A stretch of DNA of 64,000 nucleotides, from positions 111,136 to 175,135 of IMG/VR virus record IMGVR_UViG_3300032287_003559; one strand, written 5' to 3'. The translations under genes were made by a program, and so were the position numbers. The notes beneath the pieces were generated by a model. The model searched no databases, was not told the origin of the DNA, and worked only from the letters and a program-made list of their open reading frames with translations. Position 1 is the first letter of the stretch; every line of letters starts with the position of its first letter. Positions 4,493 through 6,107 of the stretch are shown here, one piece after another. Origin of the DNA: a virus.

Positions 4493-5188
4493 ATGAGAGT
4501 AGATCTTCATAACTTCTTTAAGCATTATGATGAAAATAATCCAAAACATGTTGCAGCAGTAGAGCAACTTGAAGTGGATCTTGCAAGTAAGAATCCAGAT
4601 TTGATCGATGATGCCTCAAACTGGGTTCGCATCTATAGAACAGTTCCTGCAGTTCCGGGAATTCTTCCAGTTCCTTATTATCCACAGACAGATAACTACA
4701 GAGACGCACAAAGAACCTGTAACTCATCTTCTTGTGCGATGTGTCTAGAATACTTTAAACCAGGCACGTTACAAGGGGCAAAGGGCGATGATGCCTATAT
4801 TCAAAAGGTATTTGCTATTGGTGATACAACTGATCACTCCGTCCAGACGAAAGTTCTGGAAGGTTATGGAGTTAAGTCACACTTCAGTTACAATCTTTCT
4901 TTCTCTGATCTTGATCGTGAGCTTGCCGCTGGGAGACCTGTCGTTATCGGGATTCTTCATAGGGGCACTTTATCTGCACCTACTGGTGGGCACATGGTTG
5001 TAGTCATCGGTAAAAAGGGTGAAGACTACGTAGTAAATGATCCGTATGGATCTTTGAATGATGGTTATACGGGAGCAGTAACCAACGGTAAAGGTGCTGT
5101 ATATAAGAAATCAGATCTGATGTATCGTTGGTTAGATCATGGTAAGGATAGAACTGGTTGGGGTCGTATTTTTGATATAAAAAAGTAG
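4493..5188 (+). CDS. C39-family papain-like cysteine peptidase; zero-frame product of a frameshift pair
   Basis: 231 residues from ATG 4493 (a TTG at 4484 is in frame). The C-terminal two thirds match peptidase_C39-like domains: catalytic Cys76 in RTCNSSSCAMCLEYF, His167 in GGHMVVVIG and Asp183 in VVNDPYG. The N-terminal ~50 residues are helical and polar. It likely cuts a peptide bond in the host wall or in a structural precursor (inference). The frame ends with codons AAA AAG TAG, and that AAAAAAG is a -1 slippery heptamer in the correct phase. A shift would bypass the stop and add a lysozyme domain, giving a protein of about 394 residues. Confidence 0.85.
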   Translation: MRVDLHNFFKHYDENNPKHVAAVEQLEVDLASKNPDLIDDASNWVRIYRTVPAVPGILPVPYYPQTDNYRDAQRTCNSSSCAMCLEYFKPGTLQGAKGDDAYIQKVFAIGDTTDHSVQTKVLEGYGVKSHFSYNLSFSDLDRELAAGRPVVIGILHRGTLSAPTGGHMVVVIGKKGEDYVVNDPYGSLNDGYTGAVTNGKGAVYKKSDLMYRWLDHGKDRTGWGRIFDIKK

Positions 5189-5260
5189 AACCAACACCAC
5201 CACCAAAAAATGACATCCCTTTGTGTGGTGTTGAATTAATTAAATCTTTTGAGGGATGTC
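5179..5260 (+). promoter_or_regulatory. Programmed -1 ribosomal frameshift signal: slippery heptamer plus H-type pseudoknot
   Basis: Slippery site A AAA AAG (5179-5185) is in phase with the C39 frame, one codon before TAG. After a 6-nt spacer, stem 1 pairs CAACACCAC (5192-5200) with GTGGTGTTG (5225-5233), nine perfect pairs. Loop bases GACATCCCT (5212-5220) pair with AGGGATGTC (5252-5260), nine more perfect pairs, which makes an H-type pseudoknot. Loops are 11, 4 and 18 nt. Heptamer, spacer and pseudoknot match the textbook layout for -1 frameshifting. Confidence 0.85.
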
Positions 5261-5676
5261 GTTTAAATGCATATCCTGATCCATTAACCGGAGGTCTTCC
5301 AATCACAATCGGTTGGGGGAGTACAAAAGATTTTGATCGAACTCCTTTTAAGATGGGTAAAGTGATTACTCAAAAGTATGCAGACACTCTACTTGAGTTT
5401 GAGTTAAGAAATAGATACCTTCCTTCCCTACAAAAAATACCATATTGGGACGAAATGAATGAAAATCAAAGAGGGGCTTTGCTTTGCTTTGCTTACAATC
5501 TTGGTGCAGATTTTTATGGTAATTCTAACTTCAGTACTATTACAAGGATCTTAAAGAATAGGGAATGGAATAAAGTTCCTGATGCACTATACCTTTACCG
5601 TAATCCAGGAACTAAAGTTGAAGCAGGATTAGTAAGAAGAAGAGTTGCTGAAGGAAATCTTTGGTCTAGACCATAA
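5185..5676 (+). CDS. T4-type lysozyme domain (GH24), expressed as -1 frameshift extension of the C39 peptidase
   Basis: After slippage the reading continues through a proline-rich linker (VEPTPPPKNDIP) into a GH24 muramidase. LIKSFEGCRLNAYPD holds the catalytic Glu and the Asp nine residues later, as E11/D20 in T4 lysozyme, and TIGWG gives the catalytic Thr. The C-terminal part (RGALLCFAYNLG, GLVRRRVAEGNLW) also fits. It hydrolyses peptidoglycan glycan strands. No ATG occurs in this frame before the catalytic Glu; the only candidate start is TTG 5221, which has no Shine-Dalgarno and lies inside the pseudoknot. Expression is therefore most likely by frameshifting from the C39 gene. The end overlaps the convergent nuclease gene by about 11 nt. 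Confidence 0.85.
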   Translation, partial: VEPTPPPKNDIPLCGVELIKSFEGCRLNAYPDPLTGGLPITIGWGSTKDFDRTPFKMGKVITQKYADTLLEFELRNRYLPSLQKIPYWDEMNENQRGALLCFAYNLGADFYGNSNFSTITRILKNREWNKVPDALYLYRNPGTKVEAGLVRRRVAEGNLWSRP

Positions 5677-6007
5677 AAGGAACTGCTACACCTTCATTAA
5701 TCATTCTTTCATTTACCGTGACTGGATCTCCTACAAAATAAAGAGTTCCAAGTATTCTTCCGTACTTATCTTCTTTTGTAGTCTCAATAATCCATTCACC
5801 TTCTTTTGCGAGTTCTTTTTTTAACCATTCTTTTGCTGCAAGACCTCTTTCTTTTTCTTCTATGTCCAAAGTTCTTGTTTCTGCGGCATTAATACCTTTA
5901 AGGCGAACTCTTTGAGATAAGGTAATTCCAAATCCCAAATCAATATCAACGTCAACTGTATCACCATCAATGATTCTTTTGATTTTCTTTATTTTGTATT
6001 GATACAT
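5666..6007 (-). CDS. Staphylococcal-nuclease-like thermonuclease
   Basis: 113 residues from the ATG at 6007 (a TTG at 6022 would extend it). SNase OB-fold motifs are present: IIDGDTVDVDI (calcium-binding Asp residues), RVRLKGINAAET (active-site Arg and Glu) and KYGRILGTLYF (second Arg). Ca-dependent endonuclease of DNA or RNA; no signal peptide, so probably cytoplasmic, perhaps for host DNA breakdown. Last gene of a leftward operon, overlapping its upstream neighbour. Confidence 0.9.
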   Translation of the reverse strand: MYQYKIKKIKRIIDGDTVDVDIDLGFGITLSQRVRLKGINAAETRTLDIEEKERGLAAKEWLKKELAKEGEWIIETTKEDKYGRILGTLYFVGDPVTVNERMINEGVAVPFMV

Positions 6008-6107
6008 TTTCTTGATTTGCAATGAGTAATATTTTATAAATGACCCAAGCGACTCCTATGAGTCCAATACCCAATAGTATATTTACACTCCAGACTACCT
6101 CTTTCAT
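5967..6107 (-). CDS. Small membrane protein
   Basis: 46 codons with one hydrophobic span (NILLGIGLIGVAWVIYKILL) after a short N-terminus, and an Asn/Gln/Glu-rich tail. Its ATG overlaps the preceding stop (ATGA) and its 3' end overlaps the nuclease gene, indicating translational coupling. Function unknown. Confidence 0.6.
   Translation of the reverse strand: MKEVVWSVNILLGIGLIGVAWVIYKILLIANQENVSIQNKENQKNH

Follow-up and report, generated by a model that had tools for sequence, protein, structure and literature searches.

Many cyanobacterial viruses appear to make two wall-degrading enzymes from one gene, a C39-like cysteine peptidase and a longer peptidase-lysozyme. The clear best explanation, which we regard as very probable, is a programmed -1 frameshift that would yield a recoded bifunctional endolysin. 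This reading was proposed for a single locus in a first-pass annotation of the DNA studied here, and the comparison of relatives described in the following supports it. The -1 frameshift at A_AAA_AAG is already known, and for a wall-lysis enzyme of a phage its use appears to be undescribed; if the reading is correct, it would be a case of conserved recoding in a phage lysis enzyme.

The peptidase-lysozyme junction in the window

The window is a stretch of 64,000 nucleotides (bases 111136-175135 of a virus record of 175,135 bases), and its gene content is that of a T4-like cyanophage, including psbA, transaldolase-like and peroxiredoxin-like ORFs identified by eye. The zero-frame ORF on the plus strand (4493-5188 including the stop codon) begins with ATG at 4493, ends with TAG at 5186-5188 and encodes 231 amino acids. 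The product is a predicted member of Peptidase_C39_2, because both the Pfam profile match (E 4e-14, residues 58-185) and the catalytic Cys/His/Asp are present; Cys76, His167 and Asp183 are invariant, their roles being assigned by analogy. In addition, the ORF matches phrog_3617 and the endolysin family phrog_10051 of PHROG, and a sequence search of the PDB gave no relative of the peptidase. The ORF in the -1 frame (5176-5676, plus strand) is predicted to encode a GH24 (T4-type) phage lysozyme on the basis of a Phage_lysozyme match (Pfam, E 9e-23) and the catalytic Glu, and it resembles GH24 lysozymes of the PDB by sequence. The part that would be read downstream of the slip (5185-5673) comprises 163 residues, namely the linker VEPTPPPK and then the lysozyme. 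The fusion would thus have 231 + 163 = 394 residues, with the joint ...KK/VEPTPPPK..., and would stand next to the 231-residue peptidase, in agreement with the lengths given in the first-pass annotation. On the opposite strand, the last 11 bases of the lysozyme ORF are shared with an ORF for an SNase-like nuclease (5666-6022, minus strand; 3e-12 for the Pfam family SNase).

The peptidase ORF ends with ATA AAA AAG TAG, as had been noted, and the slippery heptamer A AAA AAG (5179-5185, plus strand) is in phase, has the form X_XXY_YYZ within the overlap of the zero and -1 frames, abuts the stop codon (5186-5188, plus strand; TAG here, TAA or TGA in some relatives) and is kept in most -1 relatives. 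After a spacer of 6 nt (5186-5191) follows the stem S1, made of the arms CAACACCAC (5192-5200) and GTGGTGTTG (5225-5233), whose pairing is supported by covariation. Inside the loop of S1 lies the 5' arm of a second stem, S2, GACATCCCT (5212-5220), and its 3' arm AGGGATGTC (5252-5260) covers the catalytic Glu-Gly-Cys codons; S2 is supported by conservation of its core and, in the 3' arm, also by the choice of GAG as a codon. All four arms are on the plus strand, and both stems were found where they had been placed before, each of them a perfect 9-bp helix. S1 was matched in strength by none of 200 mononucleotide shuffles. When the RNA of the window is folded with nested helices only, S2 alone is favoured; the coexistence of S1 and S2 requires a pseudoknot, which reconciles both stems with that preference. 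A selected stem or pseudoknot of a frameshift site is expected about 5-9 nt downstream of the heptamer; the spacer of the window falls within this range, and the helices at the junctions compared start mostly at 2-8 nt.

The lysozyme frame of the window contains no ATG or GTG ahead of the catalytic Glu codon (5251-5253), and a TTG at 5221 is the sole codon there that could serve as a start, upstream of which no Shine-Dalgarno-like sequence was visible by eye. This agrees with the earlier claim of a lysozyme frame without ATG before the catalytic Glu and without a ribosome site.

According to the frameshift reading, the majority of ribosomes would translate the C39-like peptidase and terminate at TAG, and the stem 6 nt downstream, which in the window lineage is probably an H-type pseudoknot, would stall a fraction of them. 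The stalled ribosomes would shift one base back on A AAA AAG, with tRNA-Lys re-pairing with AAA AAA, and would read on via the short linker into the T4-type lysozyme, so that a single message would give peptidase and peptidase-lysozyme at a set ratio, presumably to cleave peptide cross-links as well as glycan strands. The frames, the heptamer, the stem with its covariation, the missing lysozyme start and the alternative architectures are seen in the sequences and their comparison; slippage and its efficiency, the activities of the enzymes and their role in lysis are inferred. The heptamer A AAA AAG is very shift-prone where the sole tRNA-Lys species is tRNA-Lys(UUU) (PMC5009743). When the family of Cyanobium was taken as a proxy for the host of the window, 128 of 151 genomes matched the tRNA-Lys pattern, which may miss divergent tRNAs, and a CUU-type tRNA-Lys occurred in only 4 genomes among the matches listed. 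ARAGORN was run on 4 loci for tRNA-Lys, and the window has only 2 tRNAs, neither of them for Lys.

Relatives and the start of the lysozyme

Relatives were collected by means of peptidase and lysozyme queries from phage records and in three scans of IMG/VR, and identical junctions were removed; L012, identical to the window across 5,693 nt, was left out as independent support. Most relatives are metagenome contigs that are only partly independent, so all counts are those of distinct junctions and not of events. The lysozyme is in the -1 frame in 95 distinct loci, and in-frame, reversed, separate and lysozyme-free types were also found. Among the 95 loci, 73 have a slippery heptamer in phase and no ATGA joint, and in the remaining 22 the lysozyme start and the peptidase stop overlap as ATGA. 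The stop codon directly follows the heptamer in 67 of the 73 heptamer loci and is TAG in 63, otherwise TAA or TGA. No ATG precedes the lysozyme domain in 69 of the 73, the remaining four having an incidental upstream or nearby ATG, and no ATG, GTG or TTG at all is found there in 59; conversely, every one of the 69 -1 loci that lack a lysozyme ATG has the heptamer in phase. An upstream stimulator of the dnaX type is mostly missing, a Shine-Dalgarno-like motif preceding the heptamer in only 6 of 69 loci.

The ATGA loci constitute a natural control, since they have the same genes with the lysozyme ATG placed over the peptidase stop. A significant stem, as judged against mononucleotide shuffles, is present in 68 of the 73 heptamer loci (the other five scoring weak stems in the scan) versus 1 of the 22 ATGA loci (Fisher p about 2e-15). 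Five ATGA loci, S-SRM01 among them, keep A AAA AAG without the stem, so the heptamer by itself is no proof; as far as these sequences indicate, a heptamer without a stem is accompanied by a start codon.

It is also at this point that the possibility of two separate proteins has to be considered, in which the lysozyme would start by termination-reinitiation or from a non-AUG codon close to where the peptidase ends, the presence of the heptamer being incidental. Such a two-protein form is viable, as the sister class with the ATGA overlap demonstrates, the window does possess its one TTG, and the lysis gene of MS2, expressed via coupling to termination of the coat gene, has long served as a precedent (cited in PMC5009743). 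However, the lack of any ATG, GTG or TTG in most heptamer loci, the fact that stem and joint ATG hardly ever occur together and the presence of the same joint in in-frame fusions all speak against it, and we consider it quite improbable. As a general rule, an independent lysozyme start was rejected, because start codons are mostly absent and a locus has either the stem or the joint ATG. Separate initiation had been named in the first-pass annotation as an outcome that would overturn the frameshift; as far as sequence allows, the test failed to do so, the loci with a lysozyme ATG being those without the stem.

Stem families, covariation and the probable pseudoknot

The stems downstream of the heptamer fall into three registers, between which the stem sequences are unrelated: the CAACACCAC-type (25 distinct loci including the window), the GTTCTACTCC-type (17 loci) and the GCCAACTAAC-type (16 loci), plus outliers. 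Core positions are paired in nearly all loci and include double-sided changes, for example A-U/G-C, C-G/U-A and A-U/U-A. The paired cells amount to 96.3% in the CAACACCAC-type and 97.2% in the GTTCTACTCC-type, and the cells changed on both sides number 5 versus 1.4 in shuffles for the former and 10 versus 2.9 for the latter, with 0 of 500 shuffles as high. Moreover, the helix score of cognate arms is 23.1, compared with 13.6 (sd 0.72) when the 3' arms are permuted between loci; the effect is also present within registers 3 and 6 and is not significant within register 0, where the arms are nearly uniform. Heptamer and S1 are retained in dozens of relatives, with compensatory changes, and isolates share the arrangement; the comparison of relatives proposed in the first-pass annotation did not refute the frameshift.

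The H-type pseudoknot, which had been claimed for the window, is supported in the stem family of the window only. Within this family, a 7-bp S2 core is kept in 19 of the 20 loci that have loops of at least 15 nt, one of them (L067) with two compensating changes in the core. The catalytic Glu codon inside S2 is GAG in 19 of the 20 long-loop loci versus 11 of the 53 other heptamer loci (Fisher p about 6e-9). This is the only family in which S1 and an S2 from the loop to downstream bases are both conserved; a convincing S2 is absent from the loci with 8-12 nt loops and from the other registers, and no S2 excess was found in registers 6 and 0. The pseudoknot as a universal feature was rejected on the last result and because the loop measures only 5-12 nt at many of the loci. 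It is thus supported in one of the three stem families only, and the other lineages would use hairpins.

Efficient polymerase slippage usually takes a run longer than A6. Slippage of RNA polymerase on the A6 run, with insertion of one A and translation of the fusion from an edited message, would yield the same protein and is used in the related dnaX case of T. thermophilus (PMC5009743). But the run is short here, the conserved stem lies 3' of it and is still untranscribed at the moment of slip, the phase of the heptamer is that of X XXY YYZ, and the sampled cyanobacteria, among the matches listed, appear to have mostly tRNA-Lys(UUU) only, so that this route is very unlikely. Least credible of all is that the true sequence is A7G, a plain in-frame fusion that was misread or misassembled here or that is decaying, as the first-pass annotation had also envisaged: homopolymers are error-prone and A7G does occur in the contigs L069 and L193 (where it gives the predicted in-frame KKVE joint, with homopolymer error possible in both), whereas A6G is found in the genome of S-PM2 and in about 70 distinct loci, the S-CAM7 isolates have a heptamer without A, the lysozyme frame is intact and the stems covary exactly at the position of a frameshift stimulator. 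An artefact was rejected on the isolates and dozens of loci; for S-PM2 and S-CAM7 it would require these genomes to be wrong at the site.

Isolates, probable module exchange and known systems

The programmed frameshift is also predicted for isolate genomes. The junction of S-PM2 reads GCA AAA AAG TAA, and its publicly annotated "lysin" is a 72-aa internal ORF. The S-CAM7 isolates have the heptamer T TTT TTT (GTT TTT TTT) and an 8-bp stem of their own, and their lysozyme is annotated as ORFs of 72-90 aa. These ORFs of S-PM2 and S-CAM7, publicly labelled as lysin or hypothetical (L002 2454-2672; L008 1467-1739; L009 and L010 2104-2322), have internal starts and no catalytic Glu, that is, the predicted frameshift is overlooked in the annotations. 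S-CAM7 and the A6 loci would thus arrive at the same outcome via different slippery sequences. The frameshift would account for cyanophage "lysins" annotated as truncated ORFs without the catalytic Glu, and isolates, S-PM2 for example, would allow a direct test of whether lysis needs a given peptidase:fusion ratio.

A mirror form is found in the ACG-2014f isolates (L006, near 2025, and L324-L326) and in the contigs L184, L121 and L126, in which peptidase and lysozyme are fused in frame, A AAA AAG and the downstream stem are retained, and a stop is reached within about one codon after a -1 slip. This form suggests selection for both products and not for either alone. The heptamer and stem of ACG-2014f could also be a relic, since several related in-frame fusions have no heptamer. 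Furthermore, in L207 (near 1082-1639), L235 and the near-identical L415-L418, the heptamer is followed by TAG, a hairpin and an unrelated domain, which has no ATG and one TTG 10 codons in and matches endolysin/chitinase families of PHROG; Pfam gave no match for that of L207.

In a quick tree of the peptidases, 23 changes between the heptamer type and the rest are needed, well supported branches requiring at least 11 of them, and the peptidases nearest to that of the window (up to 92% identical) have a different stem register. Both stem arms are on the lysozyme side, so this pattern is what would be expected if lysozyme modules were exchanged downstream of the peptidase. It is likely, though less firmly so than the frameshift itself, that this cyanophage family tunes the ratio of peptidase to peptidase-glycosidase by frameshifting and that the joint is a modular socket, into which lysozyme- or chitinase-type modules bring their own stem, with mirrors that have the fusion as default and with repeated interconversion with ATGA-coupled genes.

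Among known systems, E. coli dnaX (tau/gamma) is like the window in its A_AAA_AAG, downstream stem, presumed single tRNA-Lys(UUU) and two products with a common N-terminus, and the dnaX logic, a slip leading to a stop, is followed by the ACG-2014f-like loci. The window differs from dnaX in the gene concerned and in that the slip gives the long product; most of the loci, unlike dnaX, are without an upstream Shine-Dalgarno-like stimulator, and one stem family has a pseudoknot. The phage tail assembly chaperones G/GT are likewise a short and a long protein, the long one made when ribosomes slip by -1 shortly before the first ORF ends, but they are unrelated proteins serving tail assembly instead of wall lysis. 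Two products per lysin locus are also known from Ms6 (Lysin384/241), the overlapping lysin genes of phi-vML3 and PlyC; the second endolysin of Ms6 is embedded in frame, and of the two overlapping proteins made by phi-vML3, one resembles a lysozyme and the other a holin (PMC3111421). PRFect counts lysins among frameshift-containing genes, with reference to phi-vML3, whose lysin consists of two overlapping genes (PMC10885494). The profile of phrog_3617 (peptidase-lysozyme, 405 positions) has both domains in the identical order and covers them as a single protein, whereas the frames differ in the window and recoding would be needed. The open-licence literature yielded no frameshift in a cyanophage lysin and no described case of a heptamer and stem joining two catalytic wall-degrading domains, in line with the earlier remark that no phage wall-lysis enzyme of such origin was known to have been described. 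The natural variants, that is, different heptamers, hairpins, pseudoknots and the mirror form, would be useful for the study of bacterial frameshift stimulators.

Other arrangements of these genes were also observed. In L033 (from 3190), L073, L077, L080 and L081, an ATGA-coupled ORF of 224 aa replaces the lysozyme after the peptidase, and the L033 copy has no Pfam match. Reverse-order fusions, lysozyme then peptidase, occur in S-CREM1 and in contigs (L003 1480-2661, L084, L087 and L089). In DSL-LC02/03 (L004 2531-3202 and L005 2274-2942), the lysozyme gene has its own copy of the N-terminal DLHNFF domain of about 50 residues found in the peptidase, possibly a shared targeting domain.
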